Positions 5 through 11,224 of a stretch of DNA of 11,389 nucleotides are shown piece after piece (within the stretch, counting starts at the first letter, position 1; each line of letters opens with the position of its first letter). Both the position numbers and the translations under genes were made by a program. This DNA is from Thermoproteota archaeon (lineage in GTDB: Archaea; Korarchaeota; Korarchaeia; B14-G2), in NCBI GenBank assembly GCA_003661385.1, contig QMWA01000035.1:1-11389 (forward strand). Reading direction: 5' to 3'. The notes beneath the pieces were generated by a model. It saw nothing but the letters and a program-made list of their open reading frames with translations. It was not told the DNA's origin and ran no database searches.

Positions 5-334
5 ATGGTGTCCAGCTTAAGGGAGGCGGCTGAGGAGGGGTTGGCCTACTATGTCAGCAAAGCCGGCAGCAAGCTCAGAGACTACATGAAAGCTGTTCCA
101 ACAGAGCTGCTAGGGAGAGCTGCCGCCAGAGCACCAGGCACTGGGGACTTAGGGTTCCTGAAGAAGGTGAGAGATGTGGCTAGAGGGGCTCTGCTAGACT
201 ACCCCTTCCAGCTTCCAGTAGCTATTGGAGCAATATTTCTGGTGTGGCTTGAGTGCTATAACTTGAATGTAGCGCTCAGTAAGGTTGCTGGAGAAGTGGA
301 GGGAGGGGAGGCTCTGGAGCTCATAGTGCTTTAG
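5..334 (+). CDS. Hypothetical protein, possibly 5'-truncated
   Basis: I do not recognise this 109-residue product. The frame is open to the left edge, so the ATG at 5 may be an internal Met of a longer gene. The first two thirds are charged and helical in character, rich in Glu, Lys, Arg and Ala. A hydrophobic stretch at about residues 66-83 (LDYPFQLPVAIGAIFLVWL) could be one membrane segment or a buried core helix, and a short acidic tail follows. Codon use, with AGG/AGA arginine and GAG/AAG, matches the neighbouring genes, which supports real coding. It converges on atpI: its TAG (332-334) and the TAA of atpI (333-331 on the other strand) share bases, so there is no room for an intergenic terminator. 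No function is proposed. Confidence 0.55.
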   Translation: MVSSLREAAEEGLAYYVSKAGSKLRDYMKAVPTELLGRAAARAPGTGDLGFLKKVRDVARGALLDYPFQLPVAIGAIFLVWLECYNLNVALSKVAGEVEGGEALELIVL

Positions 335-2013
335 GGGAATGACACTGGTACAGGCAGCATCAAGGGCTTGAACTGCACTCCATCCCCCATGTAGAACTTC
401 AAGCCGTGCTCCACCCAGTGAAGCCTTAGGTCCTGGAAGAACACGAAGATCACCTCGAAGAACACGAAGAACAGCGTCCCTACTATAGCTCCTATTGTGA
501 AGGGGCCTACCATCGGAAGCCCTCTGGTGAACTCTACAAACAGCTTGCTCAGCACTACGTGTATCATCTCGAACGCGAAGATCCTTGAGTATGATATCGT
601 GTTGGATAGTGAGGCTAGCAGGGAGTCTAGTGCCTCGCCAAAGCCCTCTGTAGCACCCAGAACCTTCATTCTGAGCACTAGCATAACTAGGAATGGGAGC
701 CAGAGGAATGGGAAGCTCTGCTTGAAGTTGAATGCGATCATGAACGCCCCTACTCCATGCTTAAAGAAGAGGTAGACGCCGCCTAGGTAGAGCCAGATCC
801 ACACGAGGGGGCCTGCTACAGCCTCCTCGTACTCCTTCATCCTCAGCTTGTTGATTAGCCCTAGTATGAGCCCTGCTAGGATGTGTAGTATGGCAACGTA
901 CACTGAGAACTTAAGGAGCGGCATGGGCTCCTCAGCTGGAGACCAGTGTGATGGGAACCCTAAGGCGTGTAGGAGCTTCTCCCTCACGTGCTCTATGGCT
1001 TCGCTGTGGAACACCTCGTGGAGGTGGTGGCCTAGCACCTCACCGTAAACGAGGCCAAAGAACGTGGCTGCCAGCCCACCTAATATGAAGAAAGTAGACC
1101 CCTCTAGCACGTACCTTATTATCTCTCCTCCACCCTCAAATCCTCTTCTCTTTAGCAGGTAGGCTATCGATGCGAGGACAGTGAGGACAAGGCCGTGACC
1201 GAGGTCACCGAACATCATACCGAATATCACTGGGAACGTAAAGAACCAGAGTATAGACGGGTCTATCTCGAAGTAGTTTGGTATGCCATAGCTTCTCACA
1301 AGAGCCTCGGTCACGTGGACTATGCTGGGGTTCTTCAGAAGCGTCGGAGGCTTCTCAGCGTGATGCCCATGCTCAAGCTGAGGCCTAGCGAACTCTAGCA
1401 CATACTTCCCTCCAGTGCACTCCTCAGCGATCTTCTCTAGCTTCCGTCTGCTCTCCTCTGGAACCCACCCCTCGAATACAGCTACGGTCTCTGACCTAGC
1501 CATCTTCGTTTTAGCCTCCTCTATCACCCTGAAGCTCTCCACAACCCTCTTGTACTCTATTAGCTTAGCCTTGCTTTCCTCAGCTATTGACTTGAGCTCC
1601 TCTTCTAACCCTTTCTTCTCCTCCAGCGCCTTCTCTTCCTCCTCAGCTTCCCTCTCCAAGTCCGCTATTCTGCTCTGTATGCTAGAGACTTTCGCCTCTA
1701 GCTCTGATACGTACTTTTCAGCTTCATCTACTGCCTCAGGCGAAGTCTTCCCCTCGATCTCCTCAGCAGCAGCCTCTAGGCTAATGCCTAGAGAGGTAGC
1801 TAAGCTGTCTATCCTGGATGAGAGGGCAGATAGCCTGAACAGCTTCTCAGTGGGCTCTATCGGCTTAACCTTGCCCTCAAGCTTCCTTCCTATTCTGCCT
1901 CTCATGTCCTTGAGTTCGATGAGCTTCTGCTCCCCTACAGCAGCTAAAAACCTGTCAACACACTCAACAGGGATATAGCCTCTGACTCTAAGCATGGAGA
2001 CTGGCTTCAGCAT
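331..2013 (-). CDS. atpI: A-type ATP synthase subunit I (subunit a homologue)
   Basis: Membrane stator subunit (560 aa) that forms the proton or sodium half-channels against the proteolipid ring and anchors the peripheral stalks. The N-terminal cytoplasmic part (about 1-245) has a long Glu/Lys coiled coil at about 100-170. The membrane part has the family blocks FGMMFGDLGHG (264-274), NTISYSRIFAF (471-481), whose Arg477 matches the conserved channel arginine, and QDLRLHWVEHGLKFYMGDG (527-545). I start at the ATG at 2013 (MLKPVSMLRV), which has AAAGGAG six bases upstream, rather than at the in-frame TTG at 2055. The protein is short for the family (often 600-700 aa), mainly because the cytoplasmic domain is compact. 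It lies 90 bp downstream of atpD and has its own TATA-like box. Confidence 0.96.
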   Translation of the reverse strand: MLKPVSMLRVRGYIPVECVDRFLAAVGEQKLIELKDMRGRIGRKLEGKVKPIEPTEKLFRLSALSSRIDSLATSLGISLEAAAEEIEGKTSPEAVDEAEKYVSELEAKVSSIQSRIADLEREAEEEEKALEEKKGLEEELKSIAEESKAKLIEYKRVVESFRVIEEAKTKMARSETVAVFEGWVPEESRRKLEKIAEECTGGKYVLEFARPQLEHGHHAEKPPTLLKNPSIVHVTEALVRSYGIPNYFEIDPSILWFFTFPVIFGMMFGDLGHGLVLTVLASIAYLLKRRGFEGGGEIIRYVLEGSTFFILGGLAATFFGLVYGEVLGHHLHEVFHSEAIEHVREKLLHALGFPSHWSPAEEPMPLLKFSVYVAILHILAGLILGLINKLRMKEYEEAVAGPLVWIWLYLGGVYLFFKHGVGAFMIAFNFKQSFPFLWLPFLVMLVLRMKVLGATEGFGEALDSLLASLSNTISYSRIFAFEMIHVVLSKLFVEFTRGLPMVGPFTIGAIVGTLFFVFFEVIFVFFQDLRLHWVEHGLKFYMGDGVQFKPLMLPVPVSFP

Positions 2014-2062
2014 TGTAATCTCCTTTAAGCTTCTTTTTTCAGGTTGGGGCTCCAAAGCTTAG

Positions 2063-2070
2063 CTTATAAC
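2063..2070 (-). promoter_or_regulatory. TATA-like box for atpI
   Basis: GTTATAAG on the minus strand lies 50-57 bases before the atpI ATG at 2013. A transcript starting about 25-30 bases downstream would have a leader of roughly 26 nt carrying the AAAGGAG ribosome site. The box falls in the 90-bp gap between atpD and atpI, so atpI can probably be transcribed separately from E-F-D as well as by read-through. Confidence 0.4.
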
Positions 2071-2103
2071 TCTTTCGCCTACAGCTACCATGTTAGACTA
2101 GAG

Positions 2104-2745
2104 CTAAGGCCTCCTCTTGGACAGCACAAGCCTCTTAATCAACTTAAGTCTGAAGTAGTCTTCTCTAGCCAGCTCCTCAAGCTTCATCTCGATCTCCTTG
2201 GCAGAGGCCTCGAGCCTAGGCAATATTATATACTCTAGGATGTTCACCTTTCTTCGAGTTCTCCTGATCTCCCTGCCTAGGAGCTCGAGAGCTCTCTCTG
2301 TCTCAGCCAGAGAGACGATGTAGCTCAAGACTTCCTCGAAGGCGACCTTAGATTCGTCGAGGTGCGTTGATGTCTCTGCAATCGAGTAGCCACTTTCCAA
2401 GACACCTATCTCAGCTTTCCTTACCTTTAGAACCGGTACTATAACGCCCATTATGTTCCTGGAGCCCACTTCAATCTCCATTGCCTCCCTAAGCCCCAGA
2501 CTAGCTCTCCTGACCCCAAGGCTGCCCATGACCATGTTGGCTACAAGCAGCTTCTCAAAAGCTCCCTTAATGACTTCCTCAAGCTTCTCCCTCTTCTCCC
2601 TGGCTTCACTCAGCAGGTTCATGAAGTCTATTATCAGGGCCTCCTCCTTCTCCTTGAGCAGCCTGTAAGCCCTGTTAGCGAGAGCTATCCTCTTCCTGAG
2701 CTTCAGGAGCTCCATTCTAGTCGGGCTGACTCTGGCTGCAGCCAC
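2104..2745 (-). CDS. atpD: A-type ATP synthase subunit D (central rotor shaft)
   Basis: Subunit D (213 aa) forms the coiled-coil rotor shaft inside the A3B3 head and, with F, couples ATP turnover to the membrane ring. The N-terminal family block VSPTRMELLKLRKRIALA (residues 6-23) is clear, followed by an antiparallel coiled-coil pattern. The C-terminal helix carries RRTRRKVNILEYIILPRLE, the canonical 'RRVNALE..viP' segment of the family. The start is GTG at 2745, because the conserved V-PTR block begins five residues later. The stop codon of atpF lies within TGAGGTGA upstream, so GAGGTGA doubles as a good ribosome site seven bases before the GTG. Subunits A and B, which commonly sit between F and D in archaea, are absent here. 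Confidence 0.96.
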   Translation of the reverse strand: MAAARVSPTRMELLKLRKRIALANRAYRLLKEKEEALIIDFMNLLSEAREKREKLEEVIKGAFEKLLVANMVMGSLGVRRASLGLREAMEIEVGSRNIMGVIVPVLKVRKAEIGVLESGYSIAETSTHLDESKVAFEEVLSYIVSLAETERALELLGREIRRTRRKVNILEYIILPRLEASAKEIEMKLEELAREDYFRLKLIKRLVLSKRRP

Positions 2746-2756
2746 TTAGCTTCACC

Positions 2757-3077
2757 TCAGCCTACCTCTATTCCGACAGCCCTCTTTATCATCTCCTTGT
2801 ACTTTCTCTCAGCTGGAAGCCTAGGGCCGCTCCTGTCTGGGATCTCTATGAAAATCGGGTACATCCTCTCCTTGAACGCCTCTATTTCCTCTCTAGCTAG
2901 CTCAGCAGCCTTCTCTGTTATGATCACCAGAGCTATGTCTCTCCTGTTGAGCAGCATTCTGACAGCTCTCTTAGCTGACTCCCTAGGGCTCTCCTCACTC
3001 ACCTCGTATGCCTCAGTCACACCAGCTAGCTTGAAGCCAGCTACAGTATCTGCGTCCCCTATCACAACGATCTTCAT
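2757..3077 (-). CDS. atpF: A-type ATP synthase subunit F
   Basis: Small central-stalk subunit (106 aa, normal for the family) that binds subunit D and regulates rotation and ATPase activity. The N-terminus carries the family signature IGDADTVAGFKLAGV (6-20) at the first beta strand and turn of the Rossmann-like fold. The C-terminus has IPDRSGPR (about 79-86) followed by YKEMIKRAVGIEVG, the tail helix. The ATG at 3077 shares its A with the TGA of atpE (TGATG), a one-base overlap typical of translational coupling. Its own stop lies only 11 bases before the atpD GTG. Confidence 0.96.
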   Translation of the reverse strand: MKIVVIGDADTVAGFKLAGVTEAYEVSEESPRESAKRAVRMLLNRRDIALVIITEKAAELAREEIEAFKERMYPIFIEIPDRSGPRLPAERKYKEMIKRAVGIEVG

Positions 3078-3691
3078 CAGGACACCTTAGCCTTCTCAAG
3101 TATGATCTTAGCGATGAGGGGCCTAAGCCTCTTCTTAGCCTGCTCGATTCTGGTCTTAAGGGTGTTATCTACTACAATCCTGCCGTCAGCAGACTTGACC
3201 ACGACACCATCCCTCACTATAGGAGAGGCCTCAAGCTTCAGCTTAACACCATGCTCCCTCTCCACCTTCTCAGCGATCTTAGCTGCAGCATCGAGATCCG
3301 GCTCGCTAACGTACACTGTGAGCTCACTTACACCAGCCAGCTCAACTGAGCGCCTCATCAGGTTCTCTAGGACCTCAGCTCCGTACTCCCTCCGGATCCG
3401 CTCCTCAGCTTCCTTAAACACCTTCTCCACGAGCTCCTCTCTAGCCTGAGCTATCCTCTGCCTGCTCTTGAACCTAGCGTCCATCAGAAGCCTCTCAGCC
3501 TCCTTCTCAGCATCCCTGACCTTAGACTCAAGCAGGCTCTCAGCTTCAGCTTTAGCCCTTGTCTCAGCCTCCTTAACCCTAGCTTCGGCCTCGCTCCTAG
3601 CTCTACTGAGGATGTCATCGGCCTCACTCCTAGCCTTCTCGAGAAGAGCCTCTGTAATCTTACGGTAGTCTCCAGTAACCTCCACCGACAT
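3077..3691 (-). CDS. atpE: A-type ATP synthase subunit E (peripheral stalk)
   Basis: Peripheral-stalk subunit (204 aa) that holds the A3B3 head against the torque of rotation. Residues about 10-105 form an uninterrupted Ala/Glu/Arg/Lys coiled coil with repeated 'AE' steps. The C-terminal globular domain contains SPIVRDGVVVKSADGRIVVD (about 157-176), matching the 'GG.i..s.DG.i.vdnTl..rle' block of subunit E. The frame is open to 3766, but the extra 25 residues are aromatic and non-homologous in character and would lie upstream of the TATA box. ATG at 3691 (MSVEVTGDYRK) is therefore the start, with GGTGG a few bases before it. It is the first gene of the E-F-D-(I) unit. Confidence 0.93.
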   Translation of the reverse strand: MSVEVTGDYRKITEALLEKARSEADDILSRARSEAEARVKEAETRAKAEAESLLESKVRDAEKEAERLLMDARFKSRQRIAQAREELVEKVFKEAEERIRREYGAEVLENLMRRSVELAGVSELTVYVSEPDLDAAAKIAEKVEREHGVKLKLEASPIVRDGVVVKSADGRIVVDNTLKTRIEQAKKRLRPLIAKIILEKAKVS

Positions 3692-3722
3692 TAAATACCA
3701 CCAGACGCCGCTCAGCATCCAG

Positions 3723-3730
3723 CTTATAAA
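3723..3730 (-). promoter_or_regulatory. TATA box of the atpE-F-D operon
   Basis: TTTATAAG on the minus strand, preceded by AAC, is one of the best archaeal BoxA matches in the window. It lies 32-39 bases upstream of the atpE ATG at 3691, which places the transcription start about 10 bases before the ATG. This spacing independently supports the 3691 start over the longer reading frame. Confidence 0.6.
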
Positions 3731-3810
3731 AGTTAAACCACGATACCACAACATGCAGGCTGGCATAGGGAGGCTGTGCTAGCTGCCACATGCCTTAGCA
3801 GAGGACAGAT

Positions 3811-3882: not shown

Positions 3883-4407
3883 TTGGAGAGCATAAGAGAG
3901 GTAGCTGAGCTCTTGAGCTTAGACCCATCAGGTAGACTCCTTTTCAAGGGCAAAGTCCCGATGATACTTACTACAAGAGAGTTCATAGCACTAATCCAGA
4001 AGACAATAGAGGAGGTAGTAGGGGAGAATGCTGCTGCAGTCATAATGTACAGAGCAGGCTTCAAGGCAGGATATAGTTTTGCAAGAACACAGAGCATCGA
4101 ATTCGGCGTGAGAGGAGTAGACATCCTCAGGAAGTACCTTGAGACAGCAAGCAAGAGAGGATGGGGGGAGTTCACATTACAAAGCTACGACATAAGTGAG
4201 AGGATAGTAGTAGAAGTGAGAGGGAGCTACGGCGAGGAGTGGGGCAATGTAGGCAGGAGAGTGTGCCACATTTGGCGAGGAGCACTAGCTGGAATAGCAC
4301 AGTATATAGCAGACGACATGAACCTGAAAATCAAGATGAAGGGAACAGAGGAGAAGTGCGTGGCAGAGGGATCTGAATGCTGCATAATAACAGCTGAACC
4401 AGTATAG
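3883..4407 (+). CDS. V4R (4-vinyl reductase) domain protein
   Basis: Single-domain V4R protein (174 aa). The fold (COG1719-type) is thought to bind small hydrophobic ligands and occurs alone in archaea or attached to regulators. Visible features are RAGFKAGYSFA (57-67) in the first helical layer, GRRVCHIWRGALAGIAQYI (124-142) and the C-terminal block EEKCVAEGSECCIIT (156-170), which follows the 'E..C.a.G...C.f' pattern. Cys128, Cys159, Cys166 and Cys167 could form a metal or disulfide site. No HTH is visible. The start is TTG at 3883 with AGGGA about five bases upstream; ATG at 3961 would remove part of the N-terminus. The gene is divergent from atpE. It uses more A-ending codons (GTA, GCA, ACA, AGA) than its neighbours. 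The ligand is unknown. Confidence 0.85.
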   Translation: MESIREVAELLSLDPSGRLLFKGKVPMILTTREFIALIQKTIEEVVGENAAAVIMYRAGFKAGYSFARTQSIEFGVRGVDILRKYLETASKRGWGEFTLQSYDISERIVVEVRGSYGEEWGNVGRRVCHIWRGALAGIAQYIADDMNLKIKMKGTEEKCVAEGSECCIITAEPV

Positions 4408-5231: not shown

Positions 5232-5304
5232 CTAAGGGAGGAGCAGAGGCGGTGGTGTGCTTTGGTGTTTGGACAGTAACCTTTTAAGGGGGAAGCCCTC
5301 CGTC

Positions 5305-5739
5305 ATGGGGTCTACATTGTTCAGGTTGGGTGAGGAGGAGGCCATAAGGAGGCTAGTGTCTATTGCTAATGCTCATCTCCCAGCAGAGTTCAAGACCTTA
5401 AGGCAGCTTTTAGATGAAAGGGATCCGAAGGTGCTTTGTAGAGATGGGTCAGTCCATATGTTTGATAGGAAGGAGCTGGAGAAGCTGGCTGAGATGGTTC
5501 CAAGGGAGATGCATGACAGACTAAAGCTCCCGATAGTTCTCACGATAAACCCCAAGTATGGTAGGGGGGCTTATGAAGTTGAGGGAGATGCTGCAAAGCA
5601 GGTTGTAGCCATGGTACTTGACCTACCACAGCCAGTACAGGATGAAAAGCTCATTTTATACAGGCCACAGGTCATGAGGCTCAGGAGAGTACTTCCGACG
5701 ACAACACAATATGCCTTCGCCAGAGAAGCCATGTGGTAG
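5305..5739 (+). CDS. UPF0216 (DUF61) family protein
   Basis: Conserved archaeal protein of unknown biochemical role (144 aa from this start, the usual size). The family blocks are clear: LPAEFKTLRQLL (25-36), RDGSVHMFDRKEL (46-58), LKLPIVLTINPKYGRGAYEV (73-92) and the C-terminal LYRPQVMRLRRVLPTTTQYAF (118-138). Homology-like sequence begins around residue 8, so ATG 5305 is preferred. An upstream GTG at 5257 is in frame, would add 16 residues (MLWCLDSNLL...) and sits at a nearly leaderless distance from the TATA box, so it cannot be excluded. It stands alone between the gene-poor region and the decayed sulfur genes, and no neighbour hints at its job. Confidence 0.88.
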   Translation: MGSTLFRLGEEEAIRRLVSIANAHLPAEFKTLRQLLDERDPKVLCRDGSVHMFDRKELEKLAEMVPREMHDRLKLPIVLTINPKYGRGAYEVEGDAAKQVVAMVLDLPQPVQDEKLILYRPQVMRLRRVLPTTTQYAFAREAMW

Positions 5740-5904: not shown

Positions 5905-6179
5905 GTGATGATAGTAGCGTCTAAAGGGGCCCTTGACATGGCTTACCCCCCTCTGATACTGGCTCAGACAGCAGCGTCGCTTGGCATGGACAGCATATTC
6001 TTCACATTCTGGGGGCTAGACATAGTTAGGAAGGATAGAGTCGACAAGCTGAAGGGGGCTGCTGTAGGGAGCCGTCGCTGGGTATGCCTAGCATCCTCAG
6101 GGTACTGCCAGGGATGACTGAAGTAGCCACCTCTATGATGAAGAGGAGGATCAGGGAGGTCAAGATGCCGGGGATAGAG
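5905..6179 (+). pseudogene. DsrE2-like (DsrE/F/H superfamily) pseudogene, frameshifted and truncated
   Basis: Residues from 5905 (GTG, MMIVASKGALDMAYPPLIL) match the N-terminus of membrane-associated DsrE2-type sulfur-carrier proteins, including the FFTFWGLDIVRKD block. The frame breaks at about 6072. Restoring one C (AGC-CCG-TCG) would give GSPSLGMPSILRVLPGMTE, the expected 'GnPs..MP.il.vLPGMt' motif, and the second frame continues through KMPGIE at 6179. After that the expected C-terminal third, with its 'lyaC' motif, is missing and SQR-like sequence follows without a break. Intact family members transfer or bind persulfide sulfur and commonly neighbour sqr, tusA or hdr-like genes. The single-base error could be a sequencing error, but the truncation is independent evidence of loss. 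Confidence 0.85.
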
Positions 6180-6723
6180 GCCGCAGAGTTCTTCAACCTG
6201 GACTACGTGGACCCCAAGGGAAGGCAGCTGTCCTCCATGGAAGGCGAGAAGGTAGGGTATGACATGCTAATACCGGCCTCTACACAGGCGAGCATAGCAG
6301 TGAACCCTGATGTCAGAAGCCATGATAGCTGGATCCCAGTAGACAAGTACAGGCTTAACATCGCTGGCTATGATGACGCATATGCCATCGGGGACGTAGC
6401 TGCGCTCCCCACTGCAAAGACCGGCGTGACAGCTCATCTTGAAGCTTAGTGATGGCAGAGAACATAGCTGCAGACATCAAGGGACTGGAGCCGGGTACAG
6501 TTCACAGGGAGGGCGAACTGCCCGTTTGAAGTTGGGTTTGGGAGAGCTACTTTCGTCTAGACAATTATATGAGAAGGCAGCCAAGCCATCAAAGCCCACT
6601 AGGCTCAGGTACCTTATGAAGAAGCTGTTTAAGAGCATGTACTGGCTGACGCTTACAAGGAAGCTCGACTGGGTGTTTAAGCTGTACTTTGGCAACAACC
6701 TCATGCAAGTAGATAGAAAATAA
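6180..6723 (+). pseudogene. Sulfide:quinone oxidoreductase-like pseudogene, C-terminal part only
   Basis: The frame that carries the DsrE2 remnant runs directly into EFFNLDYVDPKGRQL and then DAYAIGDVAALPTAKTGV (about 6387-6440), the second FAD-binding block of FAD/NAD(P)-dependent SQR-type flavoproteins. The N-terminal half with the GxGxxG dinucleotide motif is gone. The rest is split across frames: TAG at 6447; MAENIAADIKGLEPGTVHREG in another frame from 6452; NCPFEVGFGRATFV from 6516, stopped by TAG at 6558; and LYEKAAKPSKPTRLRYLMKK to the TAA ending at 6723 in a third frame. These pieces line up in the order expected for one protein (Cys-containing 'C.yEvGfG' block, then a C-terminal amphipathic membrane helix). 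Intact SQR passes electrons from sulfide to quinone. This copy cannot be functional. Confidence 0.88.
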
Positions 6724-7157: not shown

Positions 7158-7931
7158 TTGGAATATGATGTCGAGAAGCCCATCTGGGAGCATATAACTG
7201 AGCTGTCTGAGAGGCTTAAGGTCATTGTGCTTGTGGTTGGTGCTGCAGCTTTCATTATTGGAGTCATCCCAGCTAGGCCCTTTGACCCATCTAGCTATAG
7301 GGGAAACTACACCACCTTAGTTTCATACATAATCAGTAGCCTTGAGGAGAAGATGCTCCCTGAGGGAGCTGAGATCATAGCAGGTGGCTGGATGGACGTG
7401 TTAACCGTGTACTTGACTGCCTCTCTAGTCTTAGGCTTCCTGGCTGCATCCCCTGTCGTCGCGTACGAGATCTGGAAGTACATTGGCCCTGCTCTCTACA
7501 AGCATGAGAAGAAGCTGATAGCCTACTTTATGCTTGGCTTCGTGTCGCTGTTCGCCCTAGGAGCCGTCTACGCCTTCTACATAATTGTCCCGATTACAGC
7601 TAAGGTCATAATGTGGCTTGCCATCAAGGGAGGAGCCACACCCGTATTCACTCTCAAGGAGTTCATGAACTTCATATTCCTAGCTGTAGTAGCTACAGGA
7701 CTCTTCTTTAACTTCCCACTAATACTGCTTGTGCTCGTTAAAGCTGGAGTAATAGACACCAAGACCCTCTCAAGTAACGTTAGGAAGGTGTTTCTGGGGG
7801 TTCTGATACTGACAGCTGTACTTACACCTGACCCGTCTCCCATCAGCATGCTTCTGCTTAGCATACCGTTTATGGGCTTATACCTGATTGTGATATTCGT
7901 AGGGAGGAGGCTTGAGAGAGAAGCTACTTGA
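7158..7931 (+). CDS. tatC: Sec-independent protein translocase TatC
   Basis: Polytopic membrane receptor (257 aa) of the twin-arginine pathway, which recognises RR signal peptides of folded proteins. Family features are WEHITELSERL (10-20), the cytoplasmic N-terminal motif; SPVVAYEIWKYIGPALYKHE (98-117), with the conserved Glu104; GLFFNFPLILLVLVKAG (181-197); and LTAVLTPDPSPISMLLLSIP (218-237), with the conserved 'TP.P.s......P' block. Six transmembrane segments fit the hydrophobicity. The start is TTG at 7158 with TAGGGGTG six bases before it. No tatA is in the window. It converges on the radical SAM gene with an 8-bp overlap of the 3' ends. Its position beside an NrfD-like remnant fits the fact that partner subunits of such enzymes are often Tat substrates, but that link is inference. 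Confidence 0.95.
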   Translation: MEYDVEKPIWEHITELSERLKVIVLVVGAAAFIIGVIPARPFDPSSYRGNYTTLVSYIISSLEEKMLPEGAEIIAGGWMDVLTVYLTASLVLGFLAASPVVAYEIWKYIGPALYKHEKKLIAYFMLGFVSLFALGAVYAFYIIVPITAKVIMWLAIKGGATPVFTLKEFMNFIFLAVVATGLFFNFPLILLVLVKAGVIDTKTLSSNVRKVFLGVLILTAVLTPDPSPISMLLLSIPFMGLYLIVIFVGRRLEREAT

Positions 7932-9612
7932 TCAGGAGCTTAGCAAGCAGCTTTAGATGAAGAGGCAGCCTTAAGCTCTTAGCTAGGCTCCTGGATGGGT
8001 AGAGGTCTTCTGTAGCCCTGTACTCTGTTTCAACAAGCTCTCTTACTGCAGCAGCTAGATCCTCCCTGCGTGCCTGCGAGCTGGCAAGCTCGGAGATCTT
8101 TCTGTCAAGTTCTATCCTCCTGAGCGTGAGCTCGTATTGCTCTCGGCTTATGAGGCCTAGGCTGAGCTTTGCTTTGGCCATCTCCTCTATGGCTCTCGCT
8201 GAGGACTCAGCTATCTCTTCTCTGCTCATCCAGCTTGTCCTGTAGTTTAGGATCTGTTTCCAGTGGAGTTCTGTTAGGGCCCTCCTATGGCAGGCTAGTG
8301 ACCTCCATAGGATGGCATAGCCATAGCTGTCTGGGTCTTCGAAGGCTAAGCTACCGGGATCGACGAAGGGGGCTAGGGGGGCTACGAAGGAATCTATCCT
8401 GCCCCTGGCGGTGGCTTCCTTTGTGATGTATAGCAGGTACTTTGCAGGCTTGTCAGCGTGGCTTGGCTTCTGTAGGGGGAGCCCCACCATGAAGTATAGG
8501 TCTATCCTCTTGAATCCGAGGCTTACCGCGTTTTTCACGGTCTTCTCCAGCTCGCTGTTCCCATATGGCCTTCCGAAGGCTCTTCGAACCTCCTCTATGG
8601 GGGATTCAGGTGAGATGTGGAGGTATATGCTGTCTCCTATTCGCCTTATTTCCTGAAGGATCTTCCTTGAGGCTGGGTAGAAGAGCTCGAAAAACAGCTC
8701 ATTGCCCAGATCTGCTTCCCTTAGCGCCTTGGCTACAGCTAGCGCTCTCTCCTCGCCGCCTATTCTCAGGTCTCCGACGAAGAATATTGGGGCAGATATC
8801 ATGCTTGCTATGGACTCAGCTTCCTCTGCTATCTTGTCTGGAGACTTCAGCGCCACCCTACTCCTGTTTAGGTAGCACTTGAAGGCTGAGGCTGACCCTC
8901 CACACGTTATGCAGTTGAATATGCAGCCCTTTACTGTGATGACTGCTGTCACAGGCTTCTCCTTGAAGCCGTAGAATGGTGATGTTAGATCCATGTCTCT
9001 CGTCCTAAGGAGGTTCTTGGCTACAATCCAGTGGTCTACTCTGTTATTGAAGTCGCTGGGGACGTGTGATATGGGCTCAGCTCTCACCTTATTGCCGTCT
9101 CTCCATGCTACGTTGGGGACCCCCTCTAGGCTCCTGTGCTGGCTTATCCTCTCTGCTAGCTGCCTCATGACCTCCTCTGTGGAGTCTCCTCTGACCACAA
9201 TGTCCACATAGGGGTGCTGAGACATTATCTCCTGCCAGTAGTATGTTGCTGAGAAGCCTCCGAGTACTACTGTGGACTCTGGGTGAAGTTTCCTGATGAT
9301 CTTAGCTAGCTCTAGTGCTCCATGAGCGTGGACAAGCCAGTGGAGGCTTATCGCATAGACCTCAGCGTTCAGCTTCTTAAGGAACTTGGGTGGGCTGAAC
9401 TTCCTGTCGGCTAGCATCTTAGCAGCTATGTTGAATATCCCAACTTTGAAGCCAGCTTCCTCCAGGTATGTTGAGATGGTGAGAAAGCCGTAGGGGTACA
9501 TGTCGAACACATAGAGCGAGGGGACTACCTCGCTTATCGGGCCAGCGTAAGATGGAAGCTCCCTGAAGTCGTATACGCTTGGAGGGTGTATGAGAGCCAC
9601 ATCAACCCTCAT
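7924..9612 (-). CDS. B12-binding-fold / radical SAM protein (Ta0216-like)
   Basis: Radical SAM enzyme of 562 aa. Residues about 1-195 form a cobalamin-binding-like Rossmann domain (PYGFLTISTYLEEAGFKVGI, then VVLGGFSATYYWQEI), but without the DxHxxG motif that supplies the lower cobalt ligand in base-off enzymes. The radical SAM core starts with VKGCIFNCITCGGS: Cys230, Cys234 and Cys237 form the CxxxCxxC site for the [4Fe-4S] cluster. YLHISPESPIEEVRRAFGRP and LYFMVGLPLQKP are later core elements. The C-terminal 110 residues are helical and charged. From memory it best resembles the archaeal Ta0216-type B12/radical SAM group; the substrate is unknown. Its ATG shares one base with the TAA of the upstream methyltransferase (TAATG). 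Expected chemistry is methylation or another radical reaction on an unactivated carbon. Confidence 0.9.
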   Translation of the reverse strand: MRVDVALIHPPSVYDFRELPSYAGPISEVVPSLYVFDMYPYGFLTISTYLEEAGFKVGIFNIAAKMLADRKFSPPKFLKKLNAEVYAISLHWLVHAHGALELAKIIRKLHPESTVVLGGFSATYYWQEIMSQHPYVDIVVRGDSTEEVMRQLAERISQHRSLEGVPNVAWRDGNKVRAEPISHVPSDFNNRVDHWIVAKNLLRTRDMDLTSPFYGFKEKPVTAVITVKGCIFNCITCGGSASAFKCYLNRSRVALKSPDKIAEEAESIASMISAPIFFVGDLRIGGEERALAVAKALREADLGNELFFELFYPASRKILQEIRRIGDSIYLHISPESPIEEVRRAFGRPYGNSELEKTVKNAVSLGFKRIDLYFMVGLPLQKPSHADKPAKYLLYITKEATARGRIDSFVAPLAPFVDPGSLAFEDPDSYGYAILWRSLACHRRALTELHWKQILNYRTSWMSREEIAESSARAIEEMAKAKLSLGLISREQYELTLRRIELDRKISELASSQARREDLAAAVRELVETEYRATEDLYPSRSLAKSLRLPLHLKLLAKLLIK

Positions 9613-10319
9613 TAGACCACCTTCCTAGCTACTACACCAGCTAAAGCTAGTAGCTGCGTGACCTGCAGGACAGCAAACCCCACCTTAGCCAGAGCTGTCT
9701 TCAGGCAGCTTAAAGTCCACATGAGCTGGTATGTTGGGTGAAGCATCCTCCAAGCTCTCCCTCTCAGGCCGCATATGGCAGACGCAACCAGAGGAACAAG
9801 CTTCCTAATGTACATGGAGAGAAGCTCCTGGCCCGCTCTGCTTCCAGGCTTAAACAGGTCTACTATAGCCAGTAGCCCCCCAGGCTTAAGCACTCTATGC
9901 GCCTCAGCTAAAGCCCTCACACGGTTCAGCGAGTCCCTGAGGGCATATGAAAAGACAACACAGTCGAAGTACCCGCTTGGGAACGGCATTTCCTCCATTC
10001 TGGCAAGCACAGGCCTTAGAGGAAGCCTTGAAGACCTTTCTCTCACAGCTACAGCCATCTCAGGTAGCACATCTAGGCAGTACACCTCTCCACCTGGATG
10101 CACCTTAGATACTAGAATAACAGAAGACAGCCCTGGGCCACACCCCACATCTAGAACCCTAGAGCCAGGCTCAAGAGGAAGAGACCCCAGCACCTTAGAT
10201 CTCAGAATCCCTGAGAGGCCTAGGGTTACTGCACTATTTACCTGCTCATAGCATGGTATAGTGTCTCTTAAGGCAAGCTCGACAGAGAGCCAGAGCTGCT
10301 GTGGGATCCCTAGCTGCAT
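9612..10319 (-). CDS. UbiE/MenG-like class I SAM-dependent methyltransferase
   Basis: Class I methyltransferase (235 aa). Motif I is VLDVGCGPG (55-63), the acidic residue of motif II is Asp83 (CLDVLPEM), MPFPSGYFDCVVFSYALRD (111-129) covers motif III, and RVLKPGG (142-148) closes the core. The N-terminal PCYEQVNSAVTLGLSGILR and the 'SYALRD..NR..AL.E.HRVLKPGG' spacing resemble UbiE/MenG C-methyltransferases of quinone biosynthesis, although archaeal homologues act on other substrates too. A hydrophobic C-terminal stretch (TALAKVGFAVLQVTQLLALA) suggests a lipophilic substrate or membrane contact. ATG 10319 overlaps the ArsA stop by one base (TGATG), and its TAA overlaps the radical SAM ATG. It is the middle gene of a coupled three-gene operon. 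Confidence 0.88.
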   Translation of the reverse strand: MQLGIPQQLWLSVELALRDTIPCYEQVNSAVTLGLSGILRSKVLGSLPLEPGSRVLDVGCGPGLSSVILVSKVHPGGEVYCLDVLPEMAVAVRERSSRLPLRPVLARMEEMPFPSGYFDCVVFSYALRDSLNRVRALAEAHRVLKPGGLLAIVDLFKPGSRAGQELLSMYIRKLVPLVASAICGLRGRAWRMLHPTYQLMWTLSCLKTALAKVGFAVLQVTQLLALAGVVARKVV

Positions 10320-11224
10320 CAGGATACCCCCTTGAGGTACTCTGAGAACTCTAGGAGCTTCTCCTCGCCCTGGATGTCCTCTGGGAGCATTGGTATGACT
10401 ATTATCCCAGGGCTCTTCCCAAACTCCCTCTCGAGAAGCTCAAGGTACCTGGCATGCACCTCTGACTTCCTGACCCAGGGCTTGCAGCTACAGGCTTCTC
10501 TCTGGAAAACCTGGTTGACTATGACCTTGCGTACTCTTATGCTGAAAGCAGCTAGCTCCTGCATTATGCGCTTAGCTTGAGTGTACCCTAGCCACTCTGG
10601 TATGGTCACTATGTACGCCTCGAACTCTGGGGAGGCGAGCATGCCCAGCACATCCTCAGCTAGCTTCCTCCAGCTGCTTATCAGCTTCAGGGGGTCAGCT
10701 CTCTCCTTACGCCTTATCTTATCCAACGTGGACTTTACTCTCAGGTACATCGCTGCTGCATCACCGAGGTGGCTGTATAGCTGCTCCTCTAGCTTCACCA
10801 GGGACAGAGCTCCGCCAGCAGGGGCAGTATCCCAGACTATGAAGTCATACTCCCCAGTGCTCTTCTTGTCTAGGATATACCAGAGCATGAACTCGAATCC
10901 TATGCCAGGTGCTCCAGCAATGTAGTCTATAACCTCCTCTCCGACAGGCAGGAACGAGGACACTACATCATAGACCTCCTTCCCAAACCTCCTCTTCCAC
11001 CTCTCAACCACAGCATCCTCATCAAGCTCAGCAGCATACAGGGATCCACTCACTACTCTCGGGTCAGGACCAAGCTCTACACCAAGTATATCTGACAGAG
11101 AGGGAGTGGGGTCGCTGGTAACCAGCAGAACCTTGTGCCCACCTTTAGCCAGCCTGACTGCGAGAGAAGCTGAGCACGTGGTCTTACCTACACCACCCTT
11201 GCCCCAGAAGGATATAATCCTCAA
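10319..11224 (-). CDS. ArsA/Get3-like P-loop ATPase
   Basis: SIMIBI-class ATPase (301 aa, somewhat shorter than Get3). It has a deviant Walker A GKGGVGKT (8-15), switch I SDPTPSLSD (37-45), switch II DTAPAGGALSL (132-142), and VNQV (236-239), where Asn237 would read adenine. A C-terminal CSC (245, 247) followed by RKSEVHARYLELLEREFG fits the ArsA 'C..C..R...Q.kyl..l...F' region, but with CxC in place of CxxC. Switch I has Thr-Pro where Get3/ArsA usually has Ala-His, and switch II lacks the usual TGH. It is therefore probably not a canonical tail-anchor factor or arsenite pump. It may load or energise a step for the downstream methyltransferase and radical SAM enzyme. The start is TTG at 11224, with a G-run five bases upstream and an AT-rich box about 30 bases before it. 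Confidence 0.9.
   Translation of the reverse strand: MRIISFWGKGGVGKTTCSASLAVRLAKGGHKVLLVTSDPTPSLSDILGVELGPDPRVVSGSLYAAELDEDAVVERWKRRFGKEVYDVVSSFLPVGEEVIDYIAGAPGIGFEFMLWYILDKKSTGEYDFIVWDTAPAGGALSLVKLEEQLYSHLGDAAAMYLRVKSTLDKIRRKERADPLKLISSWRKLAEDVLGMLASPEFEAYIVTIPEWLGYTQAKRIMQELAAFSIRVRKVIVNQVFQREACSCKPWVRKSEVHARYLELLEREFGKSPGIIVIPMLPEDIQGEEKLLEFSEYLKGVS

Follow-up and report, generated by a model that had tools for sequence, protein, structure and literature searches.

In late menaquinone biosynthesis, a prenyltransferase of the UbiA family (MenA) works together with the methyltransferase MenG/UbiE. Methylmenaquinone ring methylation is attributed to MqnK/MenK, which are HemN-like class C radical S-adenosylmethionine (SAM) enzymes without a B12 domain. 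Cobalamin-dependent radical SAM methylases such as TsrM, TokK, CysS, and MgmA form another described group, and ATPases of the Get3/ArsA family are known for protein targeting and arsenite. Likenesses to these systems come together in a three-gene operon of the korarchaeote Thermoproteota archaeon GCA_003661385.1. The operon lies on contig QMWA01000035.1, analysed at its full length of 11,389 nucleotides and referred to here as the window. It encodes an ArsA/Get3-fold ATPase, a UbiE-like methyltransferase, and a B12-binding radical SAM protein of the curated family TIGR04190. We consider it probable, at roughly 0.6, that the operon carries out late, lipid-phase steps of isoprenoid-quinone biosynthesis in a setting without the Men or futalosine (Mqn) headgroup pathway. 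Judged from sequence, the case for this pathway is fairly strong, and the exact reactions proposed below are conditional on family and fold.

The likeness to late menaquinone biosynthesis consists of a MenA-like UbiA, a UbiE-like methyltransferase, and a linked polyprenyl synthase and geranylgeranyl reductase (GGR). The differences are that carriers of the radical SAM gene are without MenD and almost never have MqnA/D, that the archaeal UbiE-like enzymes score under the curated cut-offs, and that a B12 radical SAM enzyme and a Get3-fold ATPase are added here. As with MqnK/MenK, a radical SAM enzyme is proposed to modify the quinone ring, but TIGR04190 is a cobalamin-type enzyme and its substrate is putative.

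The evidence for a quinone role comes from a neighbourhood survey, in which the flanking genes of 80 TIGR04190 loci in named genomes were clustered, with mechanical open reading frames (ORFs) serving as gene calls in the relatives. A MenA-like UbiA gene lies within three genes of the TIGR04190 gene at 17 of the 80 loci, which belong to Dehalococcoidia, Spirochaetales, KSB1, Methanosarcinales, and Bipolaricaulota. By our rough estimate of one MenA-like gene per ~1,500 genes, such proximity is expected in about 0.4% of genomes, and the 17 cases observed are therefore not due to chance. These linked UbiAs score best against models of MenA (1,4-dihydroxy-2-naphthoate polyprenyltransferase), below cut-off and far above models of digeranylgeranylglyceryl phosphate (DGGGP) synthase. 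At locus L078, the UbiA beside the radical SAM gene proved to be a heme O synthase, and it was removed from the count.

Other quinone-related genes recur around TIGR04190. Besides the window, a UbiE-like gene lies directly 5′ of the TIGR04190 gene at seven of the 80 loci, and an ArsA-like ATPase gene adjoins it at nine; at a further Thermoproteota locus (L293) the ATPase and radical SAM genes are convergent. These ATPase/radical SAM neighbours are found in Korarchaeota, Pyrodictiaceae, Nitrososphaeria, Hecatellales, and Gemmatimonadota. GGR is nearby in Nitrososphaeria and at L055 and L294, a polyprenyl synthase at L055 and L063, and a complex I-type subunit at L056. In two Spirochaetota, the TIGR04190 gene sits inside a split formate dehydrogenase operon that probably encodes a selenocysteine-containing enzyme and includes an NrfD subunit. 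A quinone site is a feature of NrfD-like subunits, which are also part of proposed formate:quinone oxidoreductases (PMC8076601). The neighbour labels are scattered over the radical SAM tree, with least changes of 6 for the ATPase, 8 for the methyltransferase, 13 for UbiA, and 4 for GGR; the association is therefore not one inherited block. The original prediction had proposed methylation of either a quinone or a membrane lipid. Repeated co-location with MenA-like UbiA, MenG/UbiE, GGR, polyprenyl synthase, and respiratory complexes linked to quinones, in bacteria and archaea alike, supports the quinone side of that proposal.

At loci of Dehalococcoidia and Spirochaetota (L070, L077, L081, L083, L099; L086, L090), the radical SAM gene is followed by selD-selA-selB. 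A selenium link was set aside: the Spirochaetota neighbour is a formate dehydrogenase with its large-subunit gene interrupted by an in-frame stop codon, and this would explain why the sel genes are present.

The source genome (1.74 Mb, 91% complete, with the window as its contig C35) was placed in a comparison group of 29 genomes. Its contig C1 carries, in a row, a polyprenyl synthase, a GGR, a MenA-like UbiA, and complex I genes, and another contig encodes a NiFe hydrogenase with a cytochrome b subunit. The contig C1 UbiA scores 233 bits against the profile of radical-SAM-linked UbiAs. Against MenA it falls under the curated cut-offs of the TIGR00751 and PRK06080 series (best 102.8 of 277), being closest to the MenA models but divergent. 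Within the group, MenA-like UbiAs of 233-348 bits occur in seven genomes (G000, G001, G002, G003, G005, G006, and G028), and, with the exception of G003, these same genomes have the highest ATPase orthologue scores (376-471 bits).

The radical SAM protein belongs to TIGR04190, scoring 672.4 bits (cut-off 500) over positions 1-548 of the 554-position profile, and consists of an N-terminal B12-binding domain (PF02310) and a Radical_SAM domain (PF04055). The cysteines of its CxxxCxxC motif are invariant in the family alignment, and a HWxVHA motif is conserved. Its predicted structure has a mean predicted local distance difference test score (pLDDT) of 93 and matches TsrM, MgmA, CysS, TokK, OxsB, and AprD4 over its length, with Z of 22 to TsrM, MgmA, and CysS; in domains and fold it agrees with the cobalamin-dependent (class B) radical SAM methylases. 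Most fold matches of the model are cobalamin-dependent C-methylases, and the enzyme is probably a C-methylase as well. The fold does not fix the reaction, because AprD4 and OxsB share it and methyl transfer is not their main reaction. With TsrM, TokK, CysS, and MgmA, and by sequence also HpnR, the protein shares domain order, fold, and the CxxxCxxC motif; it differs in that identity is 13-17%, TIGR04190 is a separate curated family, and its B12 domain has an invariant HW and a near-invariant HA. The motif reads HWLVHAHG at residues 91-98 in the B12-binding domain, where H91, W92, and G98 are invariant and H95 and A96 nearly so among 49 sequences, and it could mark the cobalamin lower face or a substrate site.

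TIGR04190 is found in most of the 29 group genomes. Its archaeal spread covers Thermoproteota, Bathyarchaeota, some Nitrososphaeria, and Methanosarcinales of the anaerobic methanotrophic (ANME) type, and its bacterial spread covers Dehalococcoidia, Anaerolineae, Spirochaetota, KSB1, Gemmatimonadota, and others. A literature search found no published function for the family and no paper combining the families of the operon. A divergent TIGR04190-like clade of about 380-440 bits is present in up to three copies per locus (L301 on G324:C3, L320 on G111:C106), and its genes adjoin ORFs resembling molybdenum oxidoreductases and iron-sulfur (FeS) proteins.

The methyltransferase has its best NCBIfam matches in the UbiE/MenG models and stays under every curated cut-off, so that it is not a formal member of TIGR01934 (99.2 bits against 158.35). 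It is 41% identical to orthologues in G005 and G006, which directly precede the radical SAM gene, and the radical-SAM-linked UbiE genes of Dehalococcoidia exceed the TIGR01934 cut-off, with 198-221 bits. A hydrophobic tail had been described for this protein and used to argue for quinone or lipid methylation. In the alignment, the segment corresponds to the C-terminal strand that UbiE-type enzymes normally have and gives no reason for a membrane anchor, so that the argument built on it is not supported.

A serious if less probable account is that the operon performs only an extra ring methylation, with the radical SAM C-methylase turning menaquinone-type quinones into methylmenaquinones whose headgroup comes from Mqn, Men, or salvage. 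Its fold neighbours among the C-methylases (TsrM, TokK, MgmA, and CysS) agree with this, and Pyrobaculum carries both TIGR04190 and MqnA/D. TIGR04190 is also named after Thermoplasma Ta0216, and Thermoplasma acidophilum makes monomethylmenaquinone and methionaquinone (PMC6770870). Most carriers, however, are without Men and Mqn, so that the quinone tailored by the enzyme would in most cases be of unknown origin.

The known headgroup pathways are missing from nearly all carriers. MenD over cut-off is found in none of the 51 radical-SAM-bearing genomes, the source genome included, which speaks against the classical menaquinone pathway. MqnA and MqnD (PF02621), which would indicate the futalosine pathway, are absent from the source genome at its 91% completeness, and convincing MqnA/D occur in five of the 51 carriers: Pyrobaculum oguniense, two Methanosarcinales, one Acidobacteria, and one Gemmatimonadetes metagenome-assembled genome (MAG). 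An earlier survey included a single Korarchaeota proteome, without a complete pathway (PMC3914697). A 2026 survey reports many lineages, including Chloroflexota, without a recognised quinone pathway, and several archaeal quinones for which the biosynthesis is unknown (PMC13386864). Because its carriers are without both known menaquinone pathways, the operon points to an undescribed route or to scavenged precursors. The module was also considered as the source of the menaquinone of ammonia-oxidising archaea and was rejected, being nearly absent from 150 Nitrososphaeria (three radical SAM genes, one ATPase orthologue).

The possibility of an undescribed route is put forward tentatively. TIGR04190, the ATPase clade, and the MenA-like and UbiE-like enzymes may form the core of a third route to a respiratory quinone, either of the naphthoquinone type or new. 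It is similarly tentative that the users of such a route would be Korarchaeota, Bathyarchaeia, some Nitrososphaeria, Dehalococcoidia, and others without Men and Mqn, and a claim to be held just as lightly is that the radical SAM enzyme and the ATPase would have no counterpart in the known quinone pathways.

Scavenging is likewise a doubtful but reasonable account. A naphthoate or other aromatic headgroup would be imported from neighbouring organisms, and the operon would be a finishing kit for prenylation, methylation, and tailoring with no new headgroup pathway. The presence of UbiA and UbiE where MenD and MqnA/D are missing is what this account expects. In a Korarchaeum-type genome (G008, L165:6184-10698), an ATP-binding cassette (ABC) importer lies directly 5′ of UbiD and a TIGR01475 UbiA; the arrangement recurs in G022, and in G018 the importer is convergent. 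This is a possible aromatic-precursor salvage locus by its gene content. The importer's binding protein is weakly like MqnA/D (23 bits), but the similarity is below cut-off and may only reflect a shared fold. Carriers also come from many phyla and habitats, and some, such as Gemmatimonadota and Acidobacteriota, are respiring lineages that have large genomes, a spread less easily reconciled with import.

The operon ATPase is a Get3/ArsA/TRC40 family member, with 183 bits to PF02374 and 164 bits to TIGR00345 (cut-off 135). Its P-loop (GKGGVGKTT), switch I (DPTPS), and switch II (WDTAPAGG) are intact, and the P-loop is intact in all complete orthologues. The predicted structure (pLDDT 81, poorly predicted at residues 137-170) has the archaeal Get3 3zq6 as its best PDB match, with a template modelling (TM) score of 0.78. 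The likeness to Get3/ArsA ATPases thus lies in fold, P-loop, and family score. It differs in being a single-domain protein in its own clade, tied genomically to quinone genes and not to arsB or to components of the guided entry of tail-anchored proteins (GET) system. As a single 301-residue domain without the tandem double domain, it is not an arsenical pump ArsA (TIGR04291, 77 bits against 650). Get3's usual zinc-binding CxxC is not kept either: the window protein has CxC, and the two cysteines occur in 18 and 28 of 41 orthologues.

The source genome also carries a canonical tandem ArsA/Get3 pair on contig C83. On the profile of radical-SAM-linked ATPases, the window protein scores 469 bits and the C83 pair 138 and 117 bits, with tree support of 98 (Shimodaira-Hasegawa-like approximate likelihood ratio test, SH-aLRT). 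Across genomes, orthologues score 190-583 bits and canonical ArsA/Get3 pairs 117-147 bits. The sole exception to this gap, a G029 ArsA match of 183 bits, falls beside the canonical pair on the tree and is not counted among the orthologues. By profile and tree, the operon ATPase thus represents a distinct radical-SAM-linked clade of the Get3 fold. Members of this clade adjoin a MenA-like UbiA in G028 and in one Bathyarchaeota genome, where the ATPase gene is also beside an NrfD/FeS/molybdenum oxidoreductase and the radical SAM gene is on the same contig; in G002 the ATPase gene is beside nuoABCD of complex I. Among 398 Thermoproteota genomes, the radical SAM gene (at least 500 bits) occurs in 18 and the ATPase orthologue in 18, with both in 12 against 0.8 expected. 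In the 150 Nitrososphaeria, the one genome with an ATPase orthologue has the radical SAM gene too. The original prediction would have been refuted had its families failed to be conserved together elsewhere, and this co-occurrence far above chance is the opposite outcome.

An unlikely explanation is that of a fortuitous operon, in which the ATPase has nothing to do with the two enzymes and serves in Get3-type targeting of tail-anchored proteins. The ATPase fold does match archaeal and eukaryotic Get3, and several orthologues have unrelated neighbours. The adjacency of ATPase and radical SAM genes in separate lineages (at least six changes on the tree), the MenA-like UbiA beside the ATPase in two more lineages, the co-occurrence described above, and the separate ArsA/Get3 pair kept by the genome all argue otherwise.

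Action on an archaeal ether lipid or polyprenol, and not on a quinone, is improbable. It draws on the part that the UbiA, GGR, and prenyl synthase families also have in making archaeal lipids, and on the radical SAM enzymes Tes and Cds, which modify archaeal lipids (PMC10821996). The same UbiA-UbiE-radical SAM cluster is found in bacteria, however, the UbiAs resemble MenA far more than DGGGP synthase, and complex I and NrfD-type formate dehydrogenase are among the neighbours. An ATP-driven electron donor of the NifH/BchL type for the radical SAM/cobalamin enzyme is very improbable, because although the ATPase is from the same P-loop superfamily and the CxC pair of the window protein could bridge a dimer, its two cysteines occur in only those 18 and 28 orthologues and are absent in Thermofilum and most Dehalococcoidia, the zinc- and cluster-holding cysteines, including the cluster-ligating cysteines of NifH/BchL, are not conserved in the 41 orthologues of the clade, and its fold is nearest Get3 and not NifH.

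Several observations weigh against the late quinone-biosynthesis reading. The exact trio of ATPase, UbiE, and radical SAM genes is seen only in the window, and elsewhere the genes pair in other combinations. The co-occurrence of ATPase and radical SAM genes has a Fisher p of about 1e-14 that carries no correction for phylogeny; the ATPase is found without the radical SAM gene in G007, G025, G395, and G409, and the reverse holds in Pyrobaculum. Many of the surveyed genomes are incomplete MAGs. In Thermofilum, Pyrobaculum, and Korarchaeum (g5), which are the best-studied carriers, and also in Fervidicoccus, no quinone genes lie beside the radical SAM gene. The UbiAs examined in Korarchaeum-type (g5) genomes reach at most 60 bits, so that a MenA-like UbiA has not been found there so far, and their ATPase is more divergent. 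A published table reports no quinone for Korarchaeota (PMC3914697). UbiA, GGR, and polyprenyl synthase have a further use in archaeal lipid synthesis, which is an unlikely common denominator because quinone-gene loci occur in bacteria as well.

If the operon does act in late quinone biosynthesis, the polyprenyl synthase, GGR, and MenA-like UbiA that lie together on contig C1 would make the isoprenoid chain and join it to an aromatic ring. The UbiE-like enzyme, as its family suggests, would C-methylate the prenylated ring using SAM. The TIGR04190 enzyme would make a second modification beyond the reach of SAM alone, most likely the C-methylation of an unactivated ring or chain carbon. The Get3-fold ATPase may be an ATP-gated carrier or extractor that offers the hydrophobic prenylated intermediate to these soluble enzymes, or its cargo may be a canonical tail-anchored protein. 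Complex I, encoded beside the contig C1 prenylation genes, would use the quinone product. The ATPase role resembles the one proposed for UbiB/COQ8 and its lipid-binding partners in ubiquinone synthesis, in which an ATPase would help bring hydrophobic quinone intermediates to soluble enzymes; the likeness is in proposed role only, since the folds are unrelated and no homology is claimed.

The three ORFs and their family types were as first described, with exact coordinates and agreeing profile matches, and the single-base stop/start overlaps are seen in the sequence at both junctions (Table 1). Orthologues of all three proteins are present in other genomes, which identifies them as real conserved proteins. 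Downstream of the operon lies a convergent TatC gene. A scan for promoter-like sequences gave chance-level results, with a sigma-70 consensus that is not applicable to archaea. The gene remnants at lower window positions are read as a quinone-dependent enzyme near the operon that has decayed or been mis-assembled.

Table 1. Features of the window, with positions counted from its first nucleotide.
Feature	Position	Strand	Details
ArsA/Get3-fold ATPase, operon gene 1	10319-11224	minus	301 aa, TTG start
UbiE/MenG-like SAM-dependent C-methyltransferase, operon gene 2	9612-10319	minus	235 aa, ATG start
B12-binding/radical SAM protein, TIGR04190 (Ta0216 family), operon gene 3	7924-9612	minus	562 aa, ATG start
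TGATG stop/start overlap, ATPase to methyltransferase	10319-10321	minus	reads ...cTGATGc..., one base shared
TAATG stop/start overlap, methyltransferase to radical SAM gene	9612-9614	minus	reads ...cTAATGa..., one base shared
DsrE2-like and type III sulfide:quinone reductase gene remnants	5905-6723	plus	in different frames
DUF61 protein	5257-5739	plus	
DUF5943/XylR_N-like (V4R-type) protein	3883-4407	plus	
ORFs resembling A-type ATP synthase subunits I/a, D, F, E	331-3766	minus	assigned by eye; A, B, C apparently missing between F and D, a departure from the usual order in archaea

Many archaea and Chloroflexota have apparent respiratory chains and none of the known quinone pathways, and the operon supplies named candidate genes for them. 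These candidate quinone genes are common to archaea and bacteria and come with a defined set of carriers. If the late quinone-biosynthesis reading is true, it would give a function to the curated radical SAM family TIGR04190. It would also suggest a role in lipid metabolism for a Get3-type ATPase, whose family is otherwise known for protein targeting and arsenite.

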